This document shows, piece by piece, positions 24,251 to 41,199 of a stretch of 43,239 bases of DNA. Numbering within the stretch: the stretch's first letter is position 1; the number at the start of each line of letters is the position of its first letter. Source of the stretch: Eubacteriales bacterium (GTDB lineage: Bacteria > Bacillota > Clostridia > Christensenellales > Aristaeellaceae). The position numbers and the translations under genes were made by a program. The notes beneath the pieces were generated by a model, which saw only the letters and a program-made list of their open reading frames with translations, was not told where the DNA came from and did not search any database. The stretch lies in assembly GCA_028693055.1 (NCBI GenBank), contig JAQUWD010000034.1, positions 1 to 43,239 on the forward strand, written 5' to 3'.

Positions 24251-24805
24251 TTACTTTTCAACCGGCCACATATCGGAAAGGATTTTCATAGCCAGATCGA
24301 TATCATCCTGCGTCAGCTTATCATAATCGCCACGCGTGACGAAAATCTGAATAAAATATCCCTTATAGATGGTGAAGCCGCTGGCGAAGGAGCAATCTGC
24401 GTCGTCATTCTCAGCGCCTGTTTCGTTGACAATATACACTTGGGTGCCGTTTTCCGTGGTGAGATCGTGAATCTCAGGTACATTAAAATCGTCATCCATG
24501 GTATCCAGCAGTTGTTTTTTATCTTCCTCGGACATGTCGTTCAGCGTAATTCCGTCATAGGCTTCGCTATAAGCGATGGATGCGACGAATTCGGTCTTGT
24601 CCTCTTCGTCAGGGGCAAAGTATACATAAATCGTGTCGTCGAAACGATGCTCCTGCATAGTATAGCCATCAGGCACAACGCAAGTAACATCGAAGTCTGC
24701 CTGTAATTGCTGCAAAGCAACTTCATCGGTGCTTTCGGTGGCCATCGCTGTAGTCATGCCAAGCATCATGGCGAGCGCTAAAAGCAAAGCAAAAATTTTC
24801 TTCAT
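24251..24805 (-). CDS. Secreted protein of unknown function
   Basis: The 184-residue protein has a signal peptide (MKKIFALLLALAMMLGMTTAMA) and an acidic mature part rich in Asp and Glu (TIYVYFAPDEEDKTEF; QLLDTMDDDFNVPE). I do not recognise a domain. The start at 24805 follows GGAGGG; the longer frame from 24838 lacks a site. It follows an SH3-domain protein gene by 44 bases and the two are probably co-transcribed and both exported. The acidic nature may point to an outer or wall location, but no function can be assigned. Confidence 0.7.
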   Translation of the reverse strand: MKKIFALLLALAMMLGMTTAMATESTDEVALQQLQADFDVTCVVPDGYTMQEHRFDDTIYVYFAPDEEDKTEFVASIAYSEAYDGITLNDMSEEDKKQLLDTMDDDFNVPEIHDLTTENGTQVYIVNETGAENDDADCSFASGFTIYKGYFIQIFVTRGDYDKLTQDDIDLAMKILSDMWPVEK

Positions 24806-24849
24806 ATTGATTGTCCCTCCATCTTTCGTTGATTTCAATCCGTCAGAAA

Positions 24850-25428
24850 TTAAGAATCAGCGCCCGTATCGTTCAGGAAAGCGCGCATAATAAAGCCGAC
24901 TGCGCCGCTGCTCTCCACACGAACCTGGGCCCATGTTTCGTTCTGAGCAATGATCGTCAGCTTTTGGCCGTCAGCCAGCTTGGCTTCGATTGCCTCGGAC
25001 TTGCTGGGTGCCCAGCGCAGATTAACAAATCCACCCGGAGCGGAAGAGCGTACGGTAGCGCTATAGGTAACCTCTACAAAGCCGTTAAAGCTCGCTTTTT
25101 GGCTGCTGGTTGAAGTCGAAGAAGCAGCTTTGGCAGCAGGCTGATTCTTAACCAGATAGCGGCTCATAACATAGCCCCACTTGCCGTTATACTCTACATA
25201 TGCCCACGTATTTCCATTTACATAGCTGTCAACCGCCACCTTAGCTCCGTAAGGAATATTGGCGACCCGATTGTTAGCGTGGGTTATCGGCGCGCTGCGT
25301 TGGTTGAGGGATTTTCCATTGCTGGTGTACACATACCGATACTGCATATTCGCCAAAGCAGTCAGTGGCAGCGCCGTGGTCAGAACGAGAATCAAGGCGC
25401 AAATCAAGGCTAGGGTTCTTTTTTTCAT
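24850..25428 (-). CDS. Secreted protein with two SH3-type domains
   Basis: The 192-residue protein has a signal peptide (LALICALILVLTTALPLTALA), an SH3-type domain at about residues 30-93 (SLNQRSAPITHANNRV, WAYVEYNGKWGYVMSRYL), a serine/threonine-rich linker, and a second domain at about 120-190 (GFVNLRWAPSKSEAIEAKL, WAQVRVESSGAVGFIMRAFL). Such tandem domains usually bind peptidoglycan peptides. It has no catalytic domain, so it may act as a wall-binding or sensor protein. AAGGAGG precedes the ATG. It is not close in sequence to the larger SH3 proteins at 10207-13279. Confidence 0.82.
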   Translation of the reverse strand: MKKRTLALICALILVLTTALPLTALANMQYRYVYTSNGKSLNQRSAPITHANNRVANIPYGAKVAVDSYVNGNTWAYVEYNGKWGYVMSRYLVKNQPAAKAASSTSTSSQKASFNGFVEVTYSATVRSSAPGGFVNLRWAPSKSEAIEAKLADGQKLTIIAQNETWAQVRVESSGAVGFIMRAFLNDTGADS

Positions 25429-25483: not shown

Positions 25484-25568
25484 TCCTTTTAAGTCGTGCA
25501 TCACTTTTTTCCATAAACCAAATTAAATTCTGCCAGTCTTTACGTGCCAGTCTCATTTTAACGGCAAA

Positions 25569-25608
25569 GCCGCCCAGAACGCATCCGCATTGCTATGTTC
25601 TGGGCGGC
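25569..25608. terminator. Hairpin at the end of the hppA operon
   Basis: GCCGCCCAGAAC (25569-25580) pairs with GTTCTGGGCGGC (25597-25608), a perfect 12-bp stem with a 16-base loop. The better T run (CATTTTTATT) is on the plus strand; on the minus strand it is followed only by TTTG. It may still end the hppA transcript, less efficiently. Confidence 0.55.
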
Positions 25609-25629
25609 CATTTTTATTGATAGGGTCTG

Positions 25630-25719
25630 TTATCCCTTCGAAAACCGATCCGAAAAGAAACTAAGTACGCATAATCCAACTACAATCACTACAATGATTA
25701 CATCAATAACTGTACTCAC
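25630..25719 (-). CDS. 29-residue single-pass membrane protein after hppA
   Basis: A GTG at 25719 has a perfect AAGGAGG (25732-25726) six bases upstream and opens a 29-codon frame ending TAA. The product starts MSTVIDVIIVVIVVGLCVL and ends FFSDRFSKG: one membrane helix of about 18 residues with a short charged tail. The site and frame start 25 bases after the hppA stop, in the same transcript. I know no family for it. The strong binding site and well-formed helix support translation; the length is below usual gene-calling limits. Confidence 0.6.
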   Translation of the reverse strand: MSTVIDVIIVVIVVGLCVLSFFSDRFSKG

Positions 25720-25744
25720 TTGCAGCCTCCTTTCTCAGATTGCT

Positions 25745-27784
25745 TTAGTGAATCAGCGAATACAGGACGAACAATCCGGCAGCCAAGGAGGATACCAATG
25801 ACACCACCGTTATCTGCGTATTGATCGACGGGCCTGCCGTATCCTTGAACGGGTCGCCCACAGTGTCGCCGATTACCGCCGCCTTGTGAGCCTCGCTGCC
25901 CTTGCCGCCGCAATGGCCGGATTCTATATATTTCTTGGCATTATCCCAGAGTCCGCCAGCATTGCTCATTAAAAGCGCCAGCAGCAGCCCGGATACGATG
26001 TTGCCCGCCAGATAACCGCCCACCGCCTTGACGCCGCCAATCAGGCCGACGCACAGTGTCAATAAAATGGCCATTACGCCAGCGGGAATTAACTCGTGAA
26101 TTGCACCCTTTGCAGCAATATCGATGCAGCGTCCATATTCAGGCTTAACGCCCTCCTTGCCTTCACGCAAGCCAGGAATGGTTTTGAATTGCCGATGGAT
26201 TTCCGCAACCATGGTTTGCGCGTTGCGGTTGACACCGAGAATCAGCATGGCTGAGAACACCGCAGGCACCGCCGCGCCTGTTAGCATGCCGAAGAGCACG
26301 ATGGGATCCATTAGATTGAGCGTAAAGGTCACGCCGAAGCCAGCGACGGTTTCCATAAACGCACCCAGTAGCGCAATAACGGTTAAACCGGCAGCGCCGA
26401 TGGCAAAGCCCTTAGTAATCGCCTTGGAGGTATTACCAGCCGAATCCAGCTTATCGGTAATATCCAGTACTTCATCGCCTAAATCGCACATTTCCGCCAA
26501 GCCGCGGGCATTATCTACGATGGGGCCGTAAGCGTCGTTGCTGATGATCATGCCCACGACGGATAGCATGCCAATAGCAGCGATAGCAATGCCGAACATG
26601 GCGTATCCCTCCCCCAGCGGCGCACACAAGCGATAGGAGAATAAAGCGGATAAGCCGATGCCCGCCATCGACGGTAGCGAGCTCCACAGCCCGTAGGAAA
26701 AGCCAGATAAAATGGTGAACGCCGCCCCGCTTTCACATGCCTTGGCTACCTTGGCGACAGGCTTCTTATCGTCGCCGGTGAAGAAATCACTGGTCAAGCC
26801 GATCACGATACCCGCAATCATGCCCAGCGCCGCCGCGCCCCAAATCCGCAGGCTGTAGCCGCACAGCAGCGAAGTAGCCAACGTCAAAACCAAAAACAAC
26901 CCGCAGGTTACATAGGTGCCACGATTTAGCGCCTTGCCGGGATCACCGTGATCCTGAATCCGAGCCGTTAATACGCCAAGGATGGAAGCTAGCAATCCCA
27001 GTGCGCCAAAGCAAAATACAATTTCCACCTTGCCCAGCGCCGCTGCAATGACGATGGCTGCGGCAAAGGAGGCTACATTGGAATCGAACAAATCCGCGCC
27101 CATGCCCGCTACATCGCCCACGTTATCGCCAACGTTATCTGCAATAACGGCAGGATTTCGCGGATCATCCTCAGGAATCCCCAGCTCCACCTTTCCCGCC
27201 AAGTCAGCGGCAATGTCTGCCGTCTTTGTGAAAATACCGCCGCCCGCCTTGGCAAAAAGAGCCAGCGAGCTTGCGCCGAAGCTAAACGACATCAATGCCA
27301 TTTCGTTGCTCGTCAACAGATACAGTGCCGCTGCACCCATTAGGGATGCGGCGACCACCGCCATGCCCATCACCGCGCCGCCGCGAAAGCCCGCCATAAA
27401 AGCGGGAGCGAGCCCTTTTCGGGCCGCCGAAGCCGCCTTCACATTTGCTACTGTAGCAATGCTGATGCCTACCACCCCCGCTAGCGCGGAGAGAACGGTA
27501 CCCAGCAAGTAGGAGCAAAGCATCATAACATTCGTGCCGATTCCCTTGCCCAGCCAAACCGGATTGGGAAACAGCAGCAAGATAATCAACGATACCGTAC
27601 CACAGAATATCAACAGTGTTTTGTATTCCCGTTTGATAAAGGTAAAAGCGCCCTGCCGAATCAGCAGTCCAACGCTTTCCATACGTGCGTTGGCGCTCGG
27701 CAGTGCAAACACCCAGCGATAGAAGTAAGCGGCTGTCGCCAACGCTAGGAGTGAAATGATAATTGCTAAAATGGGCCAAAGCAT
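25745..27784 (-). CDS. hppA: Membrane-bound ion-pumping pyrophosphatase
   Basis: The 679-residue protein has about 16 membrane helices and couples pyrophosphate hydrolysis to ion export across the membrane. Active-site motifs are intact: DIAADLAGKVELGIPEDDPRN and PAVIADNVGDNVGDVAGMGADLFDS, plus NDAYGPIVDNARGLAEM and GDTVGDPFKDTAGPSIN near the end. At Lys454 and Thr457 it has KAIT in GNTSKAITKG; family studies link Lys/Thr at these positions to potassium-independent, proton-pumping enzymes, whereas Ala with Gly or Ala marks the potassium-dependent group. The ATG at 27784 follows the stop of a small ORF by four bases. It fits a lineage that makes pyrophosphate-linked enzymes such as PpdK. Confidence 0.95.
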   Translation of the reverse strand: MLWPILAIIISLLALATAAYFYRWVFALPSANARMESVGLLIRQGAFTFIKREYKTLLIFCGTVSLIILLLFPNPVWLGKGIGTNVMMLCSYLLGTVLSALAGVVGISIATVANVKAASAARKGLAPAFMAGFRGGAVMGMAVVAASLMGAAALYLLTSNEMALMSFSFGASSLALFAKAGGGIFTKTADIAADLAGKVELGIPEDDPRNPAVIADNVGDNVGDVAGMGADLFDSNVASFAAAIVIAAALGKVEIVFCFGALGLLASILGVLTARIQDHGDPGKALNRGTYVTCGLFLVLTLATSLLCGYSLRIWGAAALGMIAGIVIGLTSDFFTGDDKKPVAKVAKACESGAAFTILSGFSYGLWSSLPSMAGIGLSALFSYRLCAPLGEGYAMFGIAIAAIGMLSVVGMIISNDAYGPIVDNARGLAEMCDLGDEVLDITDKLDSAGNTSKAITKGFAIGAAGLTVIALLGAFMETVAGFGVTFTLNLMDPIVLFGMLTGAAVPAVFSAMLILGVNRNAQTMVAEIHRQFKTIPGLREGKEGVKPEYGRCIDIAAKGAIHELIPAGVMAILLTLCVGLIGGVKAVGGYLAGNIVSGLLLALLMSNAGGLWDNAKKYIESGHCGGKGSEAHKAAVIGDTVGDPFKDTAGPSINTQITVVSLVSSLAAGLFVLYSLIH

Positions 27785-27788
27785 ATCG

Positions 27789-27965
27789 TCAGCACACTCC
27801 TTCCCGTTTCAGCTCTTCGCGCATGATCGGCAACCATTCGCGATATGCAATCACCAACGGCACCCCTAAGCCCACAATCGCCATTGCCCAACAGTTAATA
27901 AACTCCTTGCGTGCAGCCCGATACGCCTCGCTATGCTGAATTCCCGTTGAAGATTTACCACTCAT
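27789..27965 (-). CDS. 58-residue small membrane protein before hppA
   Basis: An ATG at 27965 with GGGAGG nine bases upstream opens a 58-codon frame ending TGA four bases before the hppA ATG. The product starts MSGKSSTGIQHSEAYRAARK, then has one hydrophobic segment (WAMAIVGLGVPLVIAY, about residues 26-41) and a charged C-terminal end (EELKREGVC). The hppA ribosome binding site lies inside its last codons, a coupling arrangement. I do not recognise the protein. It could be an accessory or regulatory subunit of the pump. Confidence 0.65.
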   Translation of the reverse strand: MSGKSSTGIQHSEAYRAARKEFINCWAMAIVGLGVPLVIAYREWLPIMREELKREGVC

Positions 27966-27996
27966 CTATTTTCGCCTCCCGTTATATTCCTAGCAA

Positions 27997-28002
27997 AGTA
28001 TA
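27997..28002 (-). promoter_or_regulatory. Extended -10 of the hppA operon
   Basis: On the minus strand TGATATACT gives an extended -10 (TGnTATACT) 32 bases before the small ORF start. No strong -35 is visible at 17 bases. Confidence 0.4.
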
Positions 28003-28054
28003 TCATCACATCGCGCTAATTTTCCGGAAAGGAAAAGCAGACCCGTCGATTTTC

Positions 28055-28109: not shown

Positions 28110-29183
28110 ATGGGGCGTAAGACGATAAAGGATCAAACCATATGGCAAAGCGTAGCCTTGACGCTAGGCATTCTCGTGCTATGCACGGCAGTCGCTAGGC
28201 TGCTGTCCACCCTTAATAACGATAACAACCCCTTTGCGGCCTGTATGTACGTGCTGGGAGTAGCGCTAGTTGCCCGCTACACGTCAGGCTATTGGTATGG
28301 CGTAGCCGCGTCGATCATCAGCGTCGCCTGTGTCAATTTTTTCTTTACCTATCCTTTTTATATGTTCAATCTGTCACTGACAGGCTATCCCCTAACCTTC
28401 GCCGTTATGCTGCTGGTCTCCGTTATCATCAGTGCAATGTCTACGCAGCTCAAACGGCAGGAGCGTCTGCGTTTCGAGGCGCAGAACGAAAGCATGCGCG
28501 CTAATCTGTTACGCTCCATCTCTCACGATATTCGCACCCCCATCGCATCGATGCTGGGTGCAAGCTCTGTGCTGCTGGAAAACCGAGACTTGACCCGTGC
28601 CGAACAAGAAGAAATGCTGCTGGAAATACAATCCGACGCGCGATGGCTGAACCGTGTAACCGAAAACATCCTCTCCGTCACCAAGCTAAACGCCGACGGC
28701 GTGAAGCTACAAAAAAGCGAGGAGGTGGTGGAGGAGATCGTCGGCAGCGCCATCGTTAAATTCCGTAAGCGCCAAGACGCTCTTCCTATTCAAGTAACAA
28801 GCCCTGACGATATTCTGCTTGTGCCCATGGAAGCGACGCTCATTGAGCAGGTGCTGATCAATTTGTTCGAGAATGTGGAGGCTCATGGAAAAACGGCTAC
28901 AAAGATCGATTTGGATATATCGCGCCAATCCGGGCGCGTCGTATTCCGGGTATCCGACGACGGTATCGGCTTTACCCCATCCGCGCTGCAATGCTTCCAA
29001 TCCGGCCAGCCCTTCTCCAGCGGTCAAACCGGTGAGGACGGCCACCGAAACATGGGGATTGGGCTTTCTGTCTGTCAGTCGATCATTACCGCCCACGGCG
29101 GCGGCATGAGTGCGTATAATAACAAAGCTGGCGGAGCAGCTATCGAATTTTGGCTGCCCTGCGAAGGAGAAAACCATGGGTAA
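28110..29183 (+). CDS. KdpD-like sensor kinase lacking the N-terminal domains
   Basis: The 357-residue kinase has a DUF4118 region of four membrane helices (about residues 15-110, with FYMFNLSLTGYPLTFAVML), then HisKA (LLRSISHDIRTPIASMLGASS, His about residue 138) and an ATPase domain (VLINLFENVEAHG, DDGIGFTP, NMGIGLSVCQSIITAHGGGM). This is the C-terminal half of KdpD; the cytoplasmic KdpD and USP domains that normally precede it are absent, so potassium or c-di-AMP sensing through them is not possible. TAGGAGG precedes the ATG. The regulator gene overlaps by eight bases. No kdpFABC genes are in the window. Confidence 0.88.
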   Translation: MGRKTIKDQTIWQSVALTLGILVLCTAVARLLSTLNNDNNPFAACMYVLGVALVARYTSGYWYGVAASIISVACVNFFFTYPFYMFNLSLTGYPLTFAVMLLVSVIISAMSTQLKRQERLRFEAQNESMRANLLRSISHDIRTPIASMLGASSVLLENRDLTRAEQEEMLLEIQSDARWLNRVTENILSVTKLNADGVKLQKSEEVVEEIVGSAIVKFRKRQDALPIQVTSPDDILLVPMEATLIEQVLINLFENVEAHGKTATKIDLDISRQSGRVVFRVSDDGIGFTPSALQCFQSGQPFSSGQTGEDGHRNMGIGLSVCQSIITAHGGGMSAYNNKAGGAAIEFWLPCEGENHG

Positions 29184-29886
29184 CAAGCTAAAGGTGCTGG
29201 TTGTAGAGGATGATTCGGGCATCAGTAAATTCTTAAAAACCACCTTAACAGCCAACGATTATGATGTGGTGATGGCTGCCGACGGTAAAAGCGCGCTTGG
29301 CATGGTTGCATCCCACTGCCCGGATTGCGTGCTGCTGGATTTGGGCTTGCCGGACATGGACGGCAATCAAATTATCCAAAGCATCCGCAACTGGACAGCG
29401 ATTCCCATCGTGATCATCTCCGCCCGCACCACCGAGGGCGATAAAGCGCAGGCGCTGGATTTGGGCGCTGATGATTACCTGACAAAGCCCTTTGGAACCA
29501 TCGAGCTATTGGCGCGCATCCGCACGGCATTGCGCCATACGCGCACCACCTCGCCCAGTGAAGAGCTTGCCCTTACCGGCAGTTATCACGTGGGAGATTT
29601 GCTAATTGACTATCACAAGCGCCGGGCTTACGTGAACGGTACGGATACCAATCTCACCCCTAATGAATTTCGCATCGTCGCGCTGCTGGGCCGATATCCG
29701 GGAAGGGTGCTAACCTACAAGCATATGCTTTCGGAGCTATGGGGGCCGTTAGCCAGCTCTGACAACAAAATACTACGCGTGCACATGGCTAGTATCCGAC
29801 GCAAAATCGAACCGAACCCCAATGAACCCGTCTATATTTTAACAGAGGTCGGCGTTGGCTACCGTATCGCCGAAAGCGCGCAGTAA
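29176..29886 (+). CDS. KdpE-like OmpR-family response regulator
   Basis: The 236-residue regulator has a receiver (VLVVEDDSGISKFLKTTL; phosphoacceptor Asp in CVLLDLGLPDMDG; Lys in DDYLTKPFGTIELLARI) and a winged helix (NLTPNEFRIVALLGRYPGRVLTYKHML, HMASIRRKIEPNPNEP, VGVGYRIAE). The start at 29176 overlaps the kinase stop by eight bases (ATGGGTAA) and follows GAAGGAG; a longer frame from 29110 lies inside the kinase. It is the likely partner of the KdpD-like kinase. Targets are unknown; the divergent hppA operon is an obvious candidate (inference). Confidence 0.92.
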   Translation: MGNKLKVLVVEDDSGISKFLKTTLTANDYDVVMAADGKSALGMVASHCPDCVLLDLGLPDMDGNQIIQSIRNWTAIPIVIISARTTEGDKAQALDLGADDYLTKPFGTIELLARIRTALRHTRTTSPSEELALTGSYHVGDLLIDYHKRRAYVNGTDTNLTPNEFRIVALLGRYPGRVLTYKHMLSELWGPLASSDNKILRVHMASIRRKIEPNPNEPVYILTEVGVGYRIAESAQ

Positions 29887-29964: not shown

Positions 29965-30138
29965 GGTATAGAATGGTATGGAGTGTACAGATCTCTTGGC
30001 TTGGTCAGAAGCCTCAATGACATGCCTGATGCTGAAAAGCGCGCGCTGCTCAATGTCGGTATTCATTGGTTCGTTTTTATCCAGTCTGAGCAGTCCTTCC
30101 ATTATCCGTGATAGCGTAGAGTGGAAAGAAGGATCATT

Positions 30139-33100
30139 ATGCAAAAGACGATTCTGATCGTAGACGACCAAGCCATTAATCGAACCATTCTCAAAAAGCT
30201 TCTTTGCGATGAATATGAAATTTTGGAAGCAGAAGATGGGAAAGTAGCTCTACGCCTTCTAAACCAGCACAGCAGCTCCATTTCTGCAGTGCTTCTAGAT
30301 TTGATCATGCCTGAAATGGACGGTTATGCAGTGCTGGAGGCCATGTCGCGAGAGGCTGAGCTTTCCGCGATTCCGGTAATCGTTGCCTCCCAGATGGACA
30401 AAAGCGAAACGGAAGGAAAGGCGTTGCAGCTGGGCGCGCGGGATTTTATCGCCAAGCCCTACAATCCTGTCGTTTTACGGAAGCGGCTAGCGAATTTGAT
30501 CGAGCTATACGAATCCAACGTCAATCTGTTGCAGGTGGAGCGAGATATGCTCACTGGGCTTTATAACAAGGACGCTTTCTATCGTCGCGCGTCGAGCATC
30601 CTTCAAAGCGGCTCAGACCAAAGCTATACCCTAATTGTTACGGATATCGAGCGCTTTAAGCTAGTCAATGACTGCTTTGGAACGGCGGCAGGGGACGAGC
30701 TACTGCGTTATGTAGCCCGGCAGTTGGCATACAACATGGGCTTACAGCGCGGCTTGTGCGCCAGAATAAACTCGGATCATTTTGTCGCGCTGGTTCCCGT
30801 AGTCTTTACCGAAGAAACCTTTCGTCCCATTGTTCAAAAGGCGGAGGAGGAGCTATCCGTCTATCCCCTCAACATGAAGATTTCTCTTAAGTTTGGCGTT
30901 TATCCCGTAACAGAGCGGGAGCTTCCCATCTCGCTCATGTGCGACCGTGCGTTATTGGTTGCGGACGGCGTCAAGGGACAATATCAATGCATCTGCTCCT
31001 TCTATGACGATACAATCCGTCAACGTATGCTACGGGAGCAGGAAATATCTAACGAAATGAATAAAGCGATTGAGGAAGACCAATTTTTGGTTTTTCTACA
31101 ACCGAAATATGATATCCGTAACGATTATCTCGTAGGTGCGGAGGCGCTGGTTCGCTGGGACCATCCAACGCTCGGCTTTATGAATCCTGGCGAGTTTATC
31201 CCAATCTTTGAACGTAACGGCTTTATTGCGGAGCTGGACCGTTATATCTGGGATAAGGCCTGCGAAATCATCGAGCGCTGGATCGTTACGGAAAAGAAAT
31301 ATGTTCCCGTTTCCGTCAATGTTTCCCGTAAGGACATCTATCAGGAGGACCTGCCCGATATCCTGTCCGGCATTGTCAAAAAGCATGGTCTGCGTCCCAA
31401 TCAGCTTCATTTGGAAATTACGGAGACCGCTTATACCGAAAACGCGGAGCAGCTGATTGCGGTAGTGTCGAAGCTCAAGCAAATGGGCTTTATTATTGAA
31501 ATGGACGATTTCGGTAACGGGTACTCATCCCTGAATATGCTATCCGAGCTGCCTATTGACGTATTGAAGCTGGATATGCGCTTTATTCAGCGAGAATCAA
31601 AGGAAAACAGCAGCCGAAGCATCTTAAGCTTCATCATCAGTCTAGCCAAATGGATGAATCTGCTGGTGATCGCCGAGGGCGTAGAATCTCAATCTCAGGT
31701 CGAGCTTTTGCGCAACATGGACTGCAATTATGTACAGGGCTACTATTATGCCAAGCCTATGCCTGTATCCCAGTTTTCCGGGCTGCTCACAAGCGCCTGC
31801 CTGGCTCCCGCCACGGTGGGCGAGCAAAAGGATTGGATGAAGGGCACGTTGCAGGTCAACGAAAAAACCGGTGACAAGGTGATGCTGATCATCGATGATG
31901 TGGAACTGAACAGAACCGTATTGGCAGAATATTTTAAAGATATATATACCATCGTAGAGGCGGATAACGGTCAGATTGCCCACCAATACATCGAAGAGCA
32001 TTACGATGAAATTGCCGTGATCATGCTGGACTTGATTATGCCGGTTATGGACGGTTTTCAGCTATTGGAGCTGCTGAAGGAAACGCCCCGGTTTGCTTCC
32101 ATTCCGGTCATCGTTACCTCTCAAGCGGGAGAGGTCAGCGAGGTACACGCCTTTGAGTTAGGCGCCAGCGATTTTCTTGGCAAGCCCTACAATCTGGACA
32201 TTGCTCTGCACCGGGTACAGAACGTAACGGCGCGCAATGCGATCCAAACGCTGGAGCGAGAAAAGCGGATGCTGTCCAAAATGAAGCAGCTGGCGCTGGA
32301 AGCGAAGCTGGACCAAATGACCGGCGTTTATAACCGAATGGAAATGGAACGTCAGGTACAGGATTTCTTCGTAACAAACGAGCAAAAGGATTCCATCTTT
32401 CTGATGCTCGATATTGATAATTTCAAAAGCATAAACGATCAGTTTGACCATATACGCGGAGACGAGACGATCAAAGCCGTTGCCAATGCGCTTCAATCCT
32501 ATTTTCGGGAAGACGATTTGGTTTGCCGTATGGGCGGAGATGAGTTTGCTGTATTTATCCGTTCAAAGCTTGAAAAATCACAGCTATCGCGCCGTTTGGA
32601 TCAGATCAGCGCAAAGCTGAAGCTACAAATTGAAGATATGGAAGTTACCTGTTCCATCGGCGTTTGCGTCGCGCCTGAGGATGGCGCTTGTTATCAGGAC
32701 GTATACCAAAATGCCGATGTGGCGCTATTGATGGCCAAGCGCCTTGGAAAAAATCGCTGGCAGATTTATGGCGGCGAGGCGCGGCTGCCCGATCAGGTGC
32801 TGCATCGCAATATGGATTGGCTGTTGGATGAGTCCAGCGACGCCATTATTGTAAGCGACGCTCAAACCTATGAAATTTATTATCTGAACGACGTGGCTTG
32901 CGCCCTCGCAGGGAAGGATAAGAAAACCTGCTTGTCCATGCCTTGCTATCAGGCACTTTGGAATAACGACGCGCCATGCAGTCATTGCGTGCATATTAGC
33001 AAGCTTACACGGGATTATTGCGAGCATGAGGTTCAGTCTGAAGAAACGGGAAAAAACTATATTATCAAAGGCAAGTTATTTACCTGGGGCACTCACGAGG

Positions 33101-33576
33101 CGCGCATCCAATATATACAAGACAACACCCTTCGTTATCACATGTCCCAGCAGATGAATGCTTTGCTTGAGGATCAGCAAACGCTTCTTGATCTGCTGCC
33201 CAGCGGACTCATCCGTTACAGCGCTCGCACGCAGGAGTTCACCTTTGTAAGTAAAAACACGTTGCGCATGTTAGGTTATACGCAGCAGGAGTTCGAGGAA
33301 AAATTCAAGAATCGTTTTGATTTGATGGTCTGGCACGAGGATAGAGAGCGGGTGCTGCTTGAAATTGCGGAGCAGATCTCGCATTCCAGCGATGATACCT
33401 GCGAATACCGCATTGAAAAAAAGGACGGCACGCTGTGCTGGGTCTATGACATCGGACACCTTCACCCCAATCGCAACGGCGGCGAATTCTATGTCACCTT
33501 TATTGACGCGACACGCCAAAAGACTTTGGAGCAAGAAAATGAACAGCTTCGTCTGGCGCAAGGTAAAACCTGCTAA
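30139..33576 (+). CDS. REC-GGDEF-EAL-REC-GGDEF-PAS-PAS c-di-GMP protein
   Basis: The soluble protein of 1145 residues combines both c-di-GMP activities. In order: receiver (1-115, LLDLIMPEMDG); a degenerate GGDEF domain (about 130-285, active-site motif replaced by NSDHF); an EAL phosphodiesterase (about 310-560) with GAEALVRW, LEITET, DDFGNG, AEGVE and QGY all present, so probably active; a second receiver (about 580-700, MLDLIMPVMDG); a GGDEF domain with intact RMGGDEF (near 799) and an RxxD inhibitory site (REDD) five residues before it; then two PAS-like domains (about 895-1000 with a PCSHC cysteine motif, and 1015-1130). The ATG at 30139 follows AAGAAGG; the GTG at 30121 is less likely. 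No membrane segment is present. Confidence 0.9.
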   Translation: MQKTILIVDDQAINRTILKKLLCDEYEILEAEDGKVALRLLNQHSSSISAVLLDLIMPEMDGYAVLEAMSREAELSAIPVIVASQMDKSETEGKALQLGARDFIAKPYNPVVLRKRLANLIELYESNVNLLQVERDMLTGLYNKDAFYRRASSILQSGSDQSYTLIVTDIERFKLVNDCFGTAAGDELLRYVARQLAYNMGLQRGLCARINSDHFVALVPVVFTEETFRPIVQKAEEELSVYPLNMKISLKFGVYPVTERELPISLMCDRALLVADGVKGQYQCICSFYDDTIRQRMLREQEISNEMNKAIEEDQFLVFLQPKYDIRNDYLVGAEALVRWDHPTLGFMNPGEFIPIFERNGFIAELDRYIWDKACEIIERWIVTEKKYVPVSVNVSRKDIYQEDLPDILSGIVKKHGLRPNQLHLEITETAYTENAEQLIAVVSKLKQMGFIIEMDDFGNGYSSLNMLSELPIDVLKLDMRFIQRESKENSSRSILSFIISLAKWMNLLVIAEGVESQSQVELLRNMDCNYVQGYYYAKPMPVSQFSGLLTSACLAPATVGEQKDWMKGTLQVNEKTGDKVMLIIDDVELNRTVLAEYFKDIYTIVEADNGQIAHQYIEEHYDEIAVIMLDLIMPVMDGFQLLELLKETPRFASIPVIVTSQAGEVSEVHAFELGASDFLGKPYNLDIALHRVQNVTARNAIQTLEREKRMLSKMKQLALEAKLDQMTGVYNRMEMERQVQDFFVTNEQKDSIFLMLDIDNFKSINDQFDHIRGDETIKAVANALQSYFREDDLVCRMGGDEFAVFIRSKLEKSQLSRRLDQISAKLKLQIEDMEVTCSIGVCVAPEDGACYQDVYQNADVALLMAKRLGKNRWQIYGGEARLPDQVLHRNMDWLLDESSDAIIVSDAQTYEIYYLNDVACALAGKDKKTCLSMPCYQALWNNDAPCSHCVHISKLTRDYCEHEVQSEETGKNYIIKGKLFTWGTHEARIQYIQDNTLRYHMSQQMNALLEDQQTLLDLLPSGLIRYSARTQEFTFVSKNTLRMLGYTQQEFEEKFKNRFDLMVWHEDRERVLLEIAEQISHSSDDTCEYRIEKKDGTLCWVYDIGHLHPNRNGGEFYVTFIDATRQKTLEQENEQLRLAQGKTC

Positions 33577-33613
33577 TCATTTACAAATACGAAACAGGTA
33601 AGGAGGTCATAGA

Positions 33614-36600
33614 GTGGAAGAAAAATATATGCTGATTGTCGATGATATCGATGGCAACAGAGGTGTTTTGGAAGCCTGCTTTTGCTCAGAATTCACGATT
33701 TATCAAGCGAACGGCGGTTATCCGGCTATCGAGCTTATTAAGCAATATGGCGATAAGCTTTCGATGATTCTATTGGATATTATGATGCCGGATCTAGATG
33801 GAATCGCTGTTCTAAAATGGCTGCAGGCTTCGCCCTACGCATCCATTCCCGTGATCGCCGTTACTGCGGAGCATAGCTATCAGCTAGAAGCGTTGGAAAA
33901 TGGAGCATGGGACTTTATTGCCAAGCCGGAGGATAGCCGCGTTATACACGCCCGCGTACATAACGTTTTGGGACGGTGTGGGCTGGAGGCCGCTCGCCTT
34001 CGCAACAAGCAGCTAGCTCAGGCAAAGCTTGAAGTGGAGAACCTTGTGAACAGCATTCCCGGTGGCATCGCAACCTACCGGATCAGCGAAAAGGGCTTTG
34101 AGACCCTCTATTTCTCAGACGGTGTTGCCGCGCTGACCGGGCACACCCGCGAGGAATATGAGCAGAGAGTGCGCGGAGACGCCTCGGCGATTATGTATGG
34201 GGAGGATCGGCAACGTCTTTTGGACGCCGCCATGGCGACGCTCAATAGCGGAAATGCCATTGATGAAACCTATCGAATCTATCATAAAAACGGTAGCCTC
34301 GTCTGGGTGCATCTGAATGGAATCCTAATTGGAAAAGAAAACGGCGCTTCCATTATGCATGCCGTTTTTCAGCGCCCCGCCCACATGACGCAGCTTTATA
34401 GCAATTTGGTCAACGAAAGTCTTAGCATCATTTATGTTATGGACGTAAACACCTATGAGCTTTTGTATGTTAACCAGACCGGGCTTAAGGAGCTAGGCAA
34501 AGAAGCCGCCGATTATTCCGGAAAGAAATGCTACGAGTTCTTGTTTGATCTTCCGTCCCCCTGCTCTTTTTGCAGGAAAAACTGCATGCGTGCTGATCGA
34601 TACGATGTACGTGACTTTGCCTACCCCAAAACAGGAAAAATCTATTCCTTAAGAGGAAAGCTGACCGATTGGAACGGTTTGTCCGCTCATATCGAATATT
34701 TGGACGATGTTACCGAGACTCGAAAAGCGGAACGTGATAACGCAGCGCTAACCGCACAGCTCCAATCTGTGATGGAAAATGTGCCGGGTGGAATGTGCGT
34801 CTACCGCATTGATCAAAATGGGATTTCCCCCTTGGTGCACAATCAATCTTTTTTCAATCTTTTAGGCTATTCCGAAGAGCATCGCAACGCGGTTATGAAA
34901 AGCACAAACTATTTAAATGTTCATCAAAAGGACGTTGAAAAGCTACGAGAAAAAGTGAATGAAGCGATTGCCCATAACGCAAGGGTAAATCACACCTATC
35001 GGCTGTTTAACGACACGTTAAATCGCTATATTTGGCTGAACATGAGCGCCGTGGTAATCCCCCAGAGTGACGGAACAAAGCTTTCATATGCCAGCTATAC
35101 GGATGTGACCAGCGAGCGAGAAGCACAGACCAAGCTTATCGAAACGCAATGCGTACTAGACGAGATGCGGAAAAAAGCACAAGACGCGCTGGATAATTAT
35201 GAGTTGCTTGTCAATACGGTTCCGGGCGGAATCGTCCAATACGAGGTTCGAGACGGCAGGATACTGACGCGTTTTTTCAGCGACGGCATCTGCGAGCTGA
35301 CGGGGTATTCCCGTGAGGAGCGCGTGCGGCTGGGAAAGCAGGACATTATGTCCGTCACCTGCGAAGAGGATTTGCCCTTGCTTACATCGACCATCCAAGC
35401 CGCCATTGCTAAAAAAGAGAATATACGGATTACCTATCGTCTCAAAACGAAGAGCGGCCAACTTCGCTGGGTTTATTTAAGTGCGGCTTACTCCGTAGGC
35501 CCTCACGGCGAATGCTTGTATCAGGCGGTTTTTACTGATGTTGACAAGCTGAAAAGGCTCGAAAGGGAATTGCAGGAAAATCAGCTTCGCTATGAAACTG
35601 CCGTTAAGAGCTCTGGGATCAATATCTGGGAGTATGATATTCAAAAGGATTCTCTTTATATTGTGTCGAACTCGGCTCGAATTATGCAAAATTGCTACAG
35701 CATCGAGCATTATATTCAATCGACATTGGATCACGGCTATGTGAGGGAGGATTCGATTCCCAAATTTCTCAGCTTGTTTGAAAGGCTCCGTCAAGGTGAG
35801 CGGGAAATCACCGAGGATATTTGGTACAAAACCACAGACGAAAAAGGCTGGTGGTGCGAGCGTGTCTCCTATACCTCCATTTTCGATAGCAACGGGAAGC
35901 CCAGCAAAGCTTTTGGCGCGGGCAGAGATGTAACCCGTGAAAAAGAAGCTGAAAAGAAATTCCGAGAGGAAATGTCCTATCGCAAAGCTATTCAGAGCAA
36001 TAATCTAGCCTCCGCTGCGTTGGATTTGACAGACAATTGCGTTTTAGAAATCAGCAGTAACTTCTCCTCCGTACTGCAGCTGGAGCATAGTACGGCGGAT
36101 GAGTATTTTTCGCAAACCGAAAAGAATCTGGTTGGCGAGCAGTATATCGCGCAATATCAAAAGCTGTTTAATCGGCAGCATTTGCTCGTTTGCTTTGATA
36201 AAGGGGAGTATTCGCTGTCCATGGAGCTGACGCGGCGTTTTGACACCCCTACTCTGTATTGGGCCAATTATAATGCGCATCTACTGCAAAACCCCGAAAC
36301 AAAGCATATAGTGGCTCATTTTTCCTGCATTGATATTACGCAGGAAAAGGTAATGCAGACGATTATGGAAACCATCGTTAAGTCGGATTACGATTCCTTC
36401 GTGGTGGTAGACGGCTCCACTGACTCCGCGCTGGATTACGGCGTAGAAATCGGAAAGCATCTTTACGATCCCCAACGTTCCTTTGAAGAGCAGATTGAAG
36501 AACAGCTCCGTAGCTATGTTTGTGAGGAAGATGTGGAGCGCGCGGTTGCCGAGTGTAAAATCAATCGTATCTGGCCGCGGATTCAAGCGGGTGGAACCTA

Positions 36601-37945
36601 TAAATTCAGCTTTGGCATGCATATGCCTGACGGAGCGATTCGGCGCAAGCAGATGCAGTTTACCGCAATCGCTTCACCGCGCAAGACCTTCCTCATGACG
36701 TGCATAGACGTTAACGATATTTATGAGGAGCAGCAGTTAGCCAAGGAAAAGCTGCAGCTGGCTCTTTCAGCCGCTGAACAGGCCAATCATGCAAAATCCA
36801 TTTTTCTAAGCCGCATGAGCCACGACATCCGCACCCCGATGAATGCGGTTATTTCTCTTGCGGAGCTTGGACAGGACAGCGAATGCGTAGCCGAAGCGCA
36901 GGACTATTTCCAGAAAATTGGAACCTCCGGGCAATATTTGCTTTCGATTATCAATGACGTGCTGGATCTGAGCAAAATGGAAAGTCACCGCGCCGAGCTT
37001 CACCCGGAGGTAGTCTTTCTGCCTGATTTTATTGAGGATACGGTCGCCATCGTCATGCCAACCGCAGCGGAAAAGCAAATTGATTTACAGGTGAAGCAGT
37101 TTGACATCATCAATCAATACATGAAGCTGGATACCACCTATGTACGGCAAGTAGTCGTAAATTTGCTTTCCAACGCCATCAAATTTACGCAGCCCGGCGG
37201 CACGGTAGAGCTCATACTAAAAAACATATCACGGGGTGAGCGTTCTGTTCGCAACCGCTTGATTGTAAAGGATAACGGGATTGGTATCAGCCCGGAATTC
37301 TTATCGCGCATCTTTAGCCCCTTCGAGCAGGAAAACACCCAAAATGACACAACCAGAAAAGGCACTGGCCTTGGCTTATCCATTGTCAAAAGCATAGTGG
37401 AACAAATGGGCGGAAAAATATGGGTGGAAAGTGAGCAAGGCAACGGCAGCTCTTTTTACGTGGAGTGGACGCTGGAAACCGCAACTGCCGAGGAAGCAAA
37501 GCAGGTCAAGCCCAAGGAGGACGAGCCGACACTGTCAATACTCGCAGGCAAACGAGTTTTATTAGCTGAGGACCAGCCGCTAAACGCAGAAATAGCCAAA
37601 AAGCTTCTAGCTAAAAAAGGCATGATTGTGGACGTGGCGCAGGATGGACAGGCTGCCGTCCAGCATTTTTGCAACGCTAATCCAGAGTATTACGCCGCTA
37701 TTTTAATGGATATTCGTATGCCAGTTATGAACGGTCTGGAGGCGACCCGCGCCATTCGTGCGTTGGAACGCCCGGATGCAAAGAGCATTCCTATTATTGC
37801 TATGACCGCCAACGCTTTTGACGATGATATGCGGGAGTCGATAGCCGTCGGCATGAATGCGCACCTTGCAAAACCAATAGAATTGCCAAAGCTGTATGAT
37901 ACGCTTTCCAAATGGATTGCCAAAGCAGAGAAAAACGAAACCTGA
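33614..37945 (+). CDS. Soluble multi-PAS hybrid histidine kinase
   Basis: This 1443-residue protein has an N-terminal receiver (Asp55 in LLDIMMPDLDG), at least five PAS-like units (about 140-255, 265-375, 385-500, 525-645, 655-775) and further PAS-like sequence to about 1050, then HisKA (His1070 in RMSHDIRTPMNAVISL), an ATPase domain (LLSNAIKFT, DNGIGISPEF, GTGLGLSIVKSI) and a C-terminal receiver (Asp1366 in LMDIRMPVMNG). The second PAS has a cysteine cluster (SPCSFCRKNC, near 313) like the one in the preceding protein. It starts with GTG, supported by AAGGAGG eight to nine bases upstream. The gap from the preceding gene is 37 bases, so the two are co-transcribed. No membrane helices are visible. 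Confidence 0.92.
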   Translation: MEEKYMLIVDDIDGNRGVLEACFCSEFTIYQANGGYPAIELIKQYGDKLSMILLDIMMPDLDGIAVLKWLQASPYASIPVIAVTAEHSYQLEALENGAWDFIAKPEDSRVIHARVHNVLGRCGLEAARLRNKQLAQAKLEVENLVNSIPGGIATYRISEKGFETLYFSDGVAALTGHTREEYEQRVRGDASAIMYGEDRQRLLDAAMATLNSGNAIDETYRIYHKNGSLVWVHLNGILIGKENGASIMHAVFQRPAHMTQLYSNLVNESLSIIYVMDVNTYELLYVNQTGLKELGKEAADYSGKKCYEFLFDLPSPCSFCRKNCMRADRYDVRDFAYPKTGKIYSLRGKLTDWNGLSAHIEYLDDVTETRKAERDNAALTAQLQSVMENVPGGMCVYRIDQNGISPLVHNQSFFNLLGYSEEHRNAVMKSTNYLNVHQKDVEKLREKVNEAIAHNARVNHTYRLFNDTLNRYIWLNMSAVVIPQSDGTKLSYASYTDVTSEREAQTKLIETQCVLDEMRKKAQDALDNYELLVNTVPGGIVQYEVRDGRILTRFFSDGICELTGYSREERVRLGKQDIMSVTCEEDLPLLTSTIQAAIAKKENIRITYRLKTKSGQLRWVYLSAAYSVGPHGECLYQAVFTDVDKLKRLERELQENQLRYETAVKSSGINIWEYDIQKDSLYIVSNSARIMQNCYSIEHYIQSTLDHGYVREDSIPKFLSLFERLRQGEREITEDIWYKTTDEKGWWCERVSYTSIFDSNGKPSKAFGAGRDVTREKEAEKKFREEMSYRKAIQSNNLASAALDLTDNCVLEISSNFSSVLQLEHSTADEYFSQTEKNLVGEQYIAQYQKLFNRQHLLVCFDKGEYSLSMELTRRFDTPTLYWANYNAHLLQNPETKHIVAHFSCIDITQEKVMQTIMETIVKSDYDSFVVVDGSTDSALDYGVEIGKHLYDPQRSFEEQIEEQLRSYVCEEDVERAVAECKINRIWPRIQAGGTYKFSFGMHMPDGAIRRKQMQFTAIASPRKTFLMTCIDVNDIYEEQQLAKEKLQLALSAAEQANHAKSIFLSRMSHDIRTPMNAVISLAELGQDSECVAEAQDYFQKIGTSGQYLLSIINDVLDLSKMESHRAELHPEVVFLPDFIEDTVAIVMPTAAEKQIDLQVKQFDIINQYMKLDTTYVRQVVVNLLSNAIKFTQPGGTVELILKNISRGERSVRNRLIVKDNGIGISPEFLSRIFSPFEQENTQNDTTRKGTGLGLSIVKSIVEQMGGKIWVESEQGNGSSFYVEWTLETATAEEAKQVKPKEDEPTLSILAGKRVLLAEDQPLNAEIAKKLLAKKGMIVDVAQDGQAAVQHFCNANPEYYAAILMDIRMPVMNGLEATRAIRALERPDAKSIPIIAMTANAFDDDMRESIAVGMNAHLAKPIELPKLYDTLSKWIAKAEKNET

Positions 37946-38007
37946 TATTACATACATGTCGATCGATGGATTCTGTACCATCCCGGACGCTAATAGGAGG
38001 AATACGA

Positions 38008-41000
38008 ATGGCGGGATATGATTTGGAAGCGATACGAGCCGTTTACGACCAAAGTCCGTTCGCTTTTGCAGTAATTCGCATCATCACGGATGATCAAGGC
38101 CGGGCGGTGGACTTTTCTTTTGCGTACAAGAACGCGGCGCTTGCCCGGTTGGAGGAGCGCGATCCACAAGCGCCGCTGGGTTTGCAAAGCAATTACCTGT
38201 ACGGAAGCACGAACCAGAAACGCCTGCGCCTATACAGCGACGTGGCTTTTTTCGGCGGTGCAAAGAGCTATACGGAATATAGCCCATTGGTTAAAAAGTA
38301 TATTCATATCCAATATTATCAATTGGATTACGGCGTATGCGGCTTTTTAATGGAGGACGTGACTGAGAAAACCGAAATGGCCCTCGCCCTTAAGAAAAGC
38401 CATTATCAGGCGCAGGTTGATCGGAAAAAGCTGGAGCTTGCCCTGAGTAACTCGGATTTGTATATTTGGGAATATGATTTAATTGGTAAAAGAAGCATTC
38501 AGCAGAATCGGGCGATCTCCGTTTTTAATACCGAACGAGTATTGGAAAATTTCCCCGATTCAGCCATAGAAGCCGGGCTTGTGCATAAGGATAGCGTTGC
38601 CGACTATTTGGAAATGCATAAAGCTGTAGGGCGCGGCGAGAAAAGCGTACAACGGGATATCTGCGTCATTAACGCCAGCGGAAAATCCTTATGGAAGCGC
38701 CTTACCTACACCACTCTTTTTGAGGATGGCAAACCCGTCGGCGCAATCGGCTGCGCGGTGGACATCGAAACCTCTAAGGAGTTGGAGCGGCAATTCAAGG
38801 AAGAAATGCGCAACATCGAGGAGGCGCAGGGTGGAGATCTGTTGGTAAAGCTGCGCATCAATATAACCAAAGGAGTTGTAGAAAGCTATGTAGCTTCGGA
38901 TACGGTCAGTCTTTCTGCGGCTGACACGCCCTATGACGTTGCCATTGAGCAGTTAGCCGCAGCCGGCTTTACGCAGGAGGATCGAGATACCATCCGCACT
39001 CGGTTAAACCGTGAGCGCACGCTTAAGGCTTTTTCCGCAGGAGAAGTACTGTATAGTATGGACTACCGCAGGAAAACTCGTGACGGTGGCGTTCTTTGGG
39101 TAAGAACCACTGTAAAAACCTACCAAAATCCGCAAAGCGGCGACGTAATGTCCTTTATCTATACCCGCGATATCAATTCCGAAAAAATTAGAGAGGGTAT
39201 TATTGAGGCCATCGTTGCCATCGAATACGATTATATCGCCTATGTCGATTTAAAAAGCGATAGCTATCGGCTTTATCTAAGAGACGAGCGTTTGAAGCAG
39301 CTCATGCCCATCAATCCAAAAGGCTACACGCAATCCATTTATTCTATAAACCAAGCGGTTGTCGTTCCGGAGGATCTGGAACGAGCCAACCGTGAAATGC
39401 TGCCGGATGGGATTCGGAAGAATCTGAAAGACACCAACCTATATTCCATGGTGGTTTCCATTTGTGAAGATGGAAAGACGATTCGTCAAAAGCGATTCCA
39501 GTACGCCTATTTAAACGAAGAATGCGAGCAGGTTGTTTTAACGCGCACCGATGTAACGGAGCTGTTGGCGCAACAGCAGCAGCAGCAAAGCATGCTGGAA
39601 ACCGCATTGCTGGCAGCCAAGCAGGCAAGCAGCGCCAAAAGCGACTTTTTATCGCGAATGAGTCACGAAATCCGCACGCCCATGAATGCGATTATCGGTA
39701 TGAGCACCATCGCCGCCCAAGAAATCGGCAACGACGCGCAGGTTGCTGATTGCATCGCCAAGATCGGGATATCCTCCCGCTTTTTATTATCGCTGATAAA
39801 CGATATCTTGGATATGAGCCGTATTGAAAGCGGTAAAATGCTGTTGAAAAACGAAAAAATACCCTTTGAAGAGTTTTTAAACGGAATCAATTCCATTTGC
39901 TATGCGCAAGCAGCCGCCAAGAATATCGACTACGAGAACGTTGTCAATTCGAACCTCGAGGATTACTATATTGGCGACGCTATGAAGCTGCAGCAAATCA
40001 TCATCAACATTGTGTCAAATGCCATCAAGTTTACGCCCGGGCATGGAAAAGTATCCCTTCACGTGCATCAAATGAAGAAAGACAAAGACCGCGCTACCCT
40101 TCGTTTTGTTGTAAACGATACCGGCTGCGGCATATCGGAGGCCTTCATACCCAGTCTTTTTGAGCCCTTCTCTCAGGAGCATTTGGGAACCACCTCCATG
40201 TATGGCGGCACCGGGCTTGGCTTAGCCATCTGTAAAAACCTTGTGGATATGATGGACGGTACCATTACCGTCCGCAGCATCGTCGGCACGGGATCGGAGT
40301 TTACGGTGGACGTGAAGCTGGGAATTACGGGAGAATCCCGAAAACGTTATCTGAATAAACCCCATTATGATTTTGGAGCCCTTCGTGCCCTTGTGGTGGA
40401 TGACGACGTGATTATCTGCCAGCATGCGATTATCACGCTAAAAGAAATTGGGGTCGTTTCCGAATGGGTAGACAGCGGTCGAAAGGCGATTGAGCGGGTA
40501 CGCGAGCAGTGGCAAAGCCAAAAGCATTACGACCTTGTGCTGCTGGACTGGAAAATGCCGGATATGGACGGAATTGAGACGGCAAAAGAAATTCGTAAAA
40601 TCGTCGGTCCCGACGTGACAATCATTATCATGACAGCCTATGACTGGACAATGATAGAGCACGAAGCGAAGCTGGCAGGGGTAAACCTGTTAATCAGCAA
40701 ACCCATGTTTAAATCCTCTCTCATTTCAGCCTTTGAAAAAGTGCTGGGTATGCAGGAGGAAAAAAAGGTGGCAGAAATTCAGGAAGAATACGATTTTACT
40801 GGAAAACGCCTGCTGCTGGCAGAGGATCACCCCCTAAACGTGGAGGTCGCGAAAAGGCTGTTGGAGCGCAAAGGCTTTATTGTTGAGCATGCCGAAAACG
40901 GCCTTCGTGCCTTGGAGCTGTTTACGACAGCTGACGATGGTTATTACGACGCAATCTTGATGGACGTCCGCATGCCCATGATGGACGGTTTACAGGCGAC

Positions 41001-41199
41001 TAACGCTATCCGTCATCTATCAAAGAAATCGTCCAAAAGCATTCCAATTATTGCCATGACGGCGAATGCCTTTGACGAGGACGTTCAGAAATCCCGAGCG
41101 GCTGGCATGAATGCGCATCTGGCAAAGCCTATTGAGCCGCAGCTTTTGTACCAAACGCTGTATCATTATATTTTTGATGAGCCAAAGGCGAACTCTTGA
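38008..41199 (+). CDS. Soluble hybrid histidine kinase with two receivers
   Basis: The 1063-residue protein begins with PAS-like sequence ([14 protein letters not shown], residues about 10-130), has further PAS-like units (about 140-265, 280-395, 400-515), a glutamine-rich helix, HisKA (His553 in [16 protein letters not shown]), an ATPase domain ([30 protein letters not shown]) and two receivers (Asp847 in [11 protein letters not shown]; Asp986 in [11 protein letters not shown]). The second receiver closely resembles the C-terminal receiver of the preceding kinase ([24 protein letters not shown]). The start at 38008 is set by AGGAGG seven bases upstream; the frame is open from 37912. No membrane segment is present. 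Third gene of the probable operon. Confidence 0.92.

Follow-up and report, generated by a model that had tools for sequence, protein, structure and literature searches.

The 43,239-nucleotide contig JAQUWD010000034.1 of the Eubacteriales bacterium assembly GCA_028693055.1 (the window hereafter) carries hppA, which encodes a membrane pyrophosphatase (M-PPase), directly behind an overlooked gene of 58 codons for a small membrane protein, and a KdpD-like sensor kinase and a KdpE-like response regulator are encoded divergently from both. It is proposed that the small protein is a membrane effector of this two-component module and not a subunit of HppA, and that the KdpE-like regulator acts as a switch for small protein and pump together, a reading we consider moderately probable. 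Comparative sequence analysis establishes a conserved small-protein family under selection, its pairing with one clade of kinases, a fixed geometry of operator and -10 box, swapping of the genes downstream, and carriers in most of which hppA goes undetected. The features of the window on which the proposal is built are as follows.

27789..27965 (-): 58-codon small-protein gene with ATG start, first gene of the operon; one predicted membrane helix, conserved family
25745..27784 (-): hppA, membrane pyrophosphatase of 679 aa, ATG at 27784; PF03030 and GNTSKAIT motif
28014..28031 (-): operator CTTTCCG-GAAA-ATTAGCG, 11-bp-phased direct repeat; position weight matrix (PWM) over 37 loci
27997..28002 (-): -10 box TATACT, 11 nt past the operator; position read from the sequence, geometry common to 36 of 37 loci
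27975..27980 (-): Shine-Dalgarno (SD) sequence GGGAGG of the 58-aa gene, 9 nt before its ATG; read from the sequence
28110..29183 (+): short KdpD-like sensor kinase of 357 aa, DUF4118-HisKA-HATPase_c (Pfam), divergent from the operon
29176..29886 (+): KdpE-like OmpR/PhoB-family response regulator (Pfam Response_reg and Trans_reg_C); the frame is open from a GTG at 29110, the likely start being the ATG at 29176

An overlooked family of small membrane proteins

A sequence-only reading of this DNA had pointed to a 58-codon frame ending four bases before hppA, with a ribosome binding site and one hydrophobic helix, and its description holds: the frame (27965-27789) stops just short of the hppA ATG at 27784, GGGAGG is spaced 9 nt from its start, and AlphaFold2 predicts a single helix over residues 13-57 with a mean pLDDT of 82. 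The frame is a real and conserved gene for a membrane protein with one predicted helix. Its 58-aa product has no Pfam or NCBIfam match at E<=1; 24 family members run against Pfam gave two stray single-member matches (E 0.025 and 0.094), neither of them MgrB, and a PDB search with the family returned one chance-level match (E 0.14). There are 21 relatives in a set of 5.8 billion proteins, and 36 further genomic loci were confirmed, which with the window makes 37. Residues A18, K20, E21, F22, N24, C25, W44, P46, I47, M48 and E51 are invariant in a 24-row alignment, and C25 is not kept in locus L213. Profile matches occur in 32 of 308 genomes of the window's taxonomic family, in 8 of 396 genomes sampled from the order and in 2 of 291 sampled from the class (sets that overlap, the window's own genome being counted in each), and the other match in the class sample is unconfirmed. 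A marginal match in genome G710 (E 3e-4, internal stop) was unconfirmed by the profile and is not counted; L207 repeats L206 on a second contig of one genome and is included in the locus count. Selection at the protein level, which the earlier reading had made the test of its small frames, is evident here: among 36 of the 37 loci, 217 of the 630 pairs have a dS of 0.05 to 1.5, and their median dN/dS is 0.23, 96% of these pairs lying below 0.5 (Nei-Gojobori, 45-codon core), as expected for purifying selection.

A kinase clade and a fixed promoter accompany the small gene

The sequence-only reading makes no mention of the two-component pair beside the operon. At 31 of the 37 loci a KdpD-like kinase gene adjoins the small gene, in divergent orientation at 30 of them and convergently at L193; the loci without it are L175, which keeps only a 35-residue KdpE-like remnant, L176, L177, L179, L190 and L212. 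Kinases of the KdpD-like type at 1e-70 occur in 76 of the 308 family genomes, at most six candidates having been scored per genome. An unrooted tree was built from 79 kinases, that is, from 79 of 88 oriented loci, leaving out L207, six loci without a kinase, and L196 and L208, which lack a piece of 230 residues; stops within the kinase pieces were written as X. In this tree 28 kinases linked to the small gene and six from loci bearing the operator described below (L231-L236) fall on one side of a branch with a support of 100/100. No small gene adjoins the latter six, and two of the genomes concerned, G027 and G921, carry it elsewhere. The remaining 45 kinases have no small gene beside any of them, the divergent side being shorter than 500 bases at two of these loci (14 at L249 and 273 at L270). 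In G848, G035, G906 and G925 a clade kinase is present and no small gene could be found. Past the regulator gene of L203 and L213, and past the remnant in L175, lies a DUF1538-type gene (recognized by Pfam only in L175) together with a gene that appears PII-like by eye.

Upstream of the small gene the operator has the consensus CTTTCCG-GAAA-ATTAGCG. Its best PWM match tops all 1850 pooled shuffles at 34 of the 37 loci and has a p of 0.001-0.004 at L176, L179 and L175; the loci scored are those from which the PWM was derived, and the independent checks are a genome-wide count with a control, the 11-nt spacing and the kinase loci outside the PWM set. At those of the clade that lack an adjoining small gene the operator is present in six of six cases with scores of 23-37, and at the 45 outside-clade loci the scores are at most 9.6. 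The geometry TTA[AG]C[GA]-N11-TANNNT, with a random expectation of 0.0012 per 200 nt, recurs at 36 of the 37 small-gene loci; an earlier count of the spacing gave 30 of 32 loci, both exceptions having a second repeat half at the right spacing. Two tandem repeat elements precede the small gene in L189, L190 and L197, and the nearer one lies 11 nt from the -10 box. The same arrangement of operator and -10 box is found without an adjoining small gene before hppA (L231), before TctB-TctA (L236) and before a TctB-like gene (L234).

The exact 18-mer operator has 29 sites in 28 of the 308 family genomes, compared with 10 for the reversed pattern, and is single-copy in 27 of those 28. Twenty-five of the sites lie at small-gene or kinase loci and one before TctB-TctA (G927); of the other three, one falls within a coding frame and two lack a correctly oriented gene behind them. 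The window's genome has a single exact operator, and a one-mismatch copy sits within a coding frame. A sigma-70 scan called no promoter at the operator and its total was no higher than in shuffles; the scan requires a -35 hexamer, which is missing from the operator promoter. In L338 (G927:C234) an exact operator with the 11-nt spacing (read by eye) stands before TctB-TctA, in a genome in which no kinase of the clade was found.

HppA and the genes behind the small gene

The hppA product matches PF03030 with an E of 3.3e-222 over positions 1-644 of the 645 of the profile. Its GNTSKAIT motif corresponds to K12.46/T12.49, given in PMC10897367 as the signature of K+-independent H+-PPases, and the window's HppA is an ordinary full-length M-PPase that bears this signature. 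It differs from the known M-PPase systems in its position behind a small membrane protein gene and a promoter of the two-component type. The hppA loci compared number 116, corresponding to 110 distinct places (the window's own, 29 in related genomes and 80 in a genome collection; six had been fetched twice), and by profile scan the small gene is at none of the 109 others, including those whose HppA is 73-79% identical. At least 300 bases before hppA are held by 102 of these 109 loci and fewer by 7. Loci L181-L184, with the 73-79% identical proteins, have no small gene, two-component pair or operator motif nearby, L181, the closest relative, offering only 463 bases upstream. Seen from the small gene, hppA was not detected at 1e-20 in 22 of the 32 family carriers (11 of the 15 high-quality genomes) and is present in 10; in G086, G897, G898 and G900 it lies on a different contig from the small gene. 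With these counts the suggestion of the sequence-only reading that the small frames encode accessory partners of HppA fails as a general rule for the 58-codon gene, and the view of its product as an HppA subunit in any general sense is largely refuted on genomic grounds. Conservation of the frame in relatives with hppA is absent for the window's HppA subtype and does exist before HppA of another class, in family genomes G735, G815, G875, G878 and G087 and in G249 from outside the family. These other-class proteins are 34-37% identical to the window's HppA; the motif, read in G087 and G249 alone, has the residues A and G, which part of a table in PMC10897367 assigns to Na+-PPases.

The gene behind the small gene varies. 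It is hppA at 8 loci (seven genomes), DctQ of a TRAP transporter at 5, TctB at 3 and OadB at 1, where 256 nt separate the two genes, and none of these at 20. In L202 hppA lacks its first 220 residues and the small frame runs into it. At several of the 20 loci the neighbouring gene is convergent, which leaves no visible partner (e.g. L180, L187, L192, L197, L199 and L205); elsewhere unrelated co-directional genes follow (L174, L177, L212 and L214). The calls of downstream genes are based on codon-position GC and their names were assigned by eye; five loci end within 1.6 kb downstream (L189, L190, L195, L196 and L208), where the lack of a partner is unsure. Genomes such as G862, G879, G895 and G897 have one exact operator copy and a small gene without a co-directional partner.

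Two further arrangements around hppA were observed. In L258, L262 and L263 (genomes G005, G006 and G008, of the same genus) a related kinase pair is divergent from an hppA whose product is 62-65% identical, without the small gene, and TTAGC-type direct repeats lie between kinase and hppA, such as TTAGCGGTATTTTAGC in L262. In L039 and L050, from other genomes of the order, the gene of an OadB-like Na+ pump subunit adjoins hppA.

Proposed role of the module

We propose that a signal would activate the DUF4118 kinase divergent from the operon, whereupon the KdpE-like regulator is predicted to bind the operator CTTTCCGGAAAATTAGCG over the -35 region. Bound there, the regulator would activate the one promoter, from which the operon would presumably be read as a single transcript. 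Activation is suggested by the position of the repeat, which overlies the -35 region with its end 11 nt from the -10 box, the arrangement typical of PhoB-type activators. The output would be the small membrane protein, together with a transport machine in genomes that have recruited one downstream of its gene; in the window it would include a pyrophosphate-driven proton pump of the K+-independent type. The window is thus predicted to contain a regulator for which a single target promoter was detected, and from this promoter a microprotein and an H+-PPase would be expressed. The small protein is taken to be the effector, probably acting in the membrane, because it is the sole detectable output in some genomes with one operator, such as the four named above.

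Known systems offer partial parallels. As in MgrB-PhoQ/PhoP, a very small membrane protein is controlled, here by prediction, by the two-component system to which its partner kinase belongs; the 58-aa protein, however, has no detectable sequence relation to MgrB, and its gene adjoins its system, has the only exact operator of the window's genome and can head transport genes. The resemblance to KdpD/KdpE-KdpFABC lies in the KdpD/KdpE-like pair itself, with a DUF4118-HisKA-HATPase_c kinase and an OmpR-type regulator (Pfam), and in a small membrane peptide whose gene accompanies that of an ion pump. Whereas KdpD has an N-terminal KdpD/Usp part, the window's kinase shows only DUF4118, HisKA and HATPase_c, and both proteins stay below the NCBIfam equivalog cut-offs, with 164 of 1123 bits for the kinase and 196 of 325 bits for the regulator. 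KdpA was found in none of the 32 family carriers, the window's own genome included, and this, with the lack of a Pfam or NCBIfam match at E<=1, led us to reject KdpF as the identity of either the 58-aa frame or a 29-aa frame behind hppA. KdpF, whose operon is under KdpDE control, bound KdpD in a two-hybrid test yet had no critical role in kdp expression, according to PMC3618439, which cautions against deducing function from linkage. Like PhoB/PhoP-type boxes, the operator is a direct repeat of 7-4-7 layout lying shortly before the -10 box, and for PhoP, a member of the same regulator family as the KdpE-like protein, 7-bp repeats with a 4-bp spacer have been described. The half-sites, CTTTCCG and ATTAGCG, differ from such boxes, and the KdpE-like protein is the presumed regulator.

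Several observations weigh against our proposal. The kinase family is repeatedly linked to hppA without the small gene (L231 within the clade; L258, L262 and L263 outside it), which hints at a part for HppA itself in the system, and many of the carrier assemblies are incomplete, so that some absences may be false. Carriers G023, G086 and G894 have no kinase of the clade at 1e-70, and the pairing of kinase and small gene is therefore not obligatory. As to the operator, the outside-clade loci L264, L268, L271, L274 and L276 score no higher than 9.6 and give a nominal p of 0.00 (60 shuffles per locus), and the 11-nt spacing to the -10 box is missing at the small-gene locus L175 and at the operator-bearing kinase loci L232, L233 and L235. 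The family-wide search covered exact copies only, and in the window's genome the 41 matches with up to two mismatches do not exceed the 57 of the reversed control, so that weaker real sites are not separable from chance.

Among other explanations, the one that survives best is an MgrB-like feedback, in which the small protein, induced by the system, binds the KdpD-like kinase in the membrane and damps or tunes it, leaving hppA as the real output of the window. In its favour, the protein has one predicted helix in about 50 aa, and its gene lies beside a kinase and is tied to one kinase clade. There is a precedent in MgrB, a 47-aa member of the PhoQ/PhoP regulon that inhibits PhoQ and makes contact through its transmembrane region, as described in PMC8404706, and the two-hybrid contact of KdpF with KdpD points the same way. 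A feedback protein would, however, be the sole detectable output at partnerless loci with one exact operator (e.g. in G895 and G897), and neither the four genomes with a clade kinase and no small gene found nor the three with a small gene and no clade kinase found fit it easily. We regard feedback as a possibility with clearly less than an even chance.

A bolder extension of the effector proposal would amount to a new kind of signalling output: one promoter would yield an interchangeable microprotein able to plug into and retune unrelated machines, among them HppA of two classes, TRAP and Tct transporters and OadB, the machine being swapped while microprotein and switch are kept; this we think rather unlikely. 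Somewhat less likely still is an interchangeable adaptor, in which the small protein would bind the co-encoded pump or transporter, or ones encoded elsewhere when its gene stands alone, a special case of the effector proposal that shares part of its probability. The genes in its favour, those for HppA, DctQ, TctB or OadB, all membrane transport proteins, stand behind the small gene at 17 of the 37 loci, but no sequence feature among those tested links the four proteins, none of them is encoded at the 20 other loci (of which five end within 1.6 kb of the gene), and at some loci, such as L174 and L214, unrelated genes come next. A role of the 58-aa (and 29-aa) proteins as accessory HppA subunits could draw on the 4-base gap in the window and on the eight loci with hppA of two classes next in line, but it is very improbable in view of the hppA counts given above, of the TRAP, Tct or OadB genes that occupy hppA's place elsewhere, and of the description of M-PPases as homodimers in the literature.

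The 29-codon frame and the surroundings of the operon

Two features lie behind hppA on the same strand.

25630..25719 (-): 29-codon GTG mini-ORF (ORF, open reading frame); putative protein, with a perfect SD and a single very hydrophobic segment
25568..25609 (-): strong hairpin 3' of the 29-codon frame, probable operon terminator by its fold; may serve both strands

The mini-ORF is the second small frame of the earlier reading and has the properties ascribed to it: the GTG frame 25719-25630 (-) starts 25 bases past the hppA stop, AAGGAGG stands 6 nt before the GTG, and its single hydrophobic segment has a hydropathy of 3.07. Of the mini-ORFs of 20-60 aa in the 43-kb window, no other is both hydrophobic and preceded by a strict 6-base SD, a stringency that the 58-codon frame's own SD does not reach, and 40 single-strand letter shuffles gave none with a hydropathy of at least 2.0. 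The conservation expected of it among relatives with hppA was not found. There is no Pfam or NCBIfam family at E<=1; no relative stands behind other hppA genes, where the best other score is 29 against 139 for itself (best 60 of 123 loci); and of the 120 related genomes searched, 21 yield a match at E<=1, none convincing, the best outside the window's own genome (E 0.005) lying inside a 1020-codon frame. Elsewhere in the window's genome a look-alike (G000:C28, 45%, E 0.06) proved to open a Cys-rich frame of 52 aa, presumably of a FeoB-associated family, and was set aside as similarity of the transmembrane type. None of the mini-ORFs behind hppA in five other small-gene loci resembles the 29-codon frame; the two hydrophobic frames of L213 overlap and lack an SD, and in L203 only 86 bases are available behind hppA. 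On these comparisons we reject the 29-codon frame as a conserved gene. Its translation is nonetheless plausible because of the perfect SD, the very hydrophobic segment and the hairpin 3' of the frame, and it may be a young gene.

The fold containing the hairpin (25555-25640, -) has -32.8 kcal/mol and a z of -4.6; a terminator scan did not report the hairpin, and Rfam has no RNA-element match within the window. Downstream of the operon, at 24251-25428 (-), follow a bacterial SH3-domain protein and a 195-aa protein without a Pfam family. On the other side, after the two-component pair (30121-41199, +), three very large signalling proteins are encoded in a row and then a cyclophilin. The first has 1151 aa with receiver, EAL, GGDEF and PAS domains, the second is a multi-PAS hybrid kinase of 1443 aa with receivers, and the third, a hybrid kinase of 1095 aa with receivers, has a frame overlapping that of the second.

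Significance of the small protein and its proposed switch

Within the open-access literature searched, which leaves most subscription journals outside, no title or abstract opening showed a paper on this small-protein family or on two-component control of hppA. The analysis brings to light a protein family that had been overlooked, together with its probable regulator, and resolves its promoter to single bases. It also connects a membrane pyrophosphatase with a probable switch run by a sensor kinase. If the only detectable target of that switch in some genomes is a membrane protein of 50 residues, the function of such small proteins would become directly testable.

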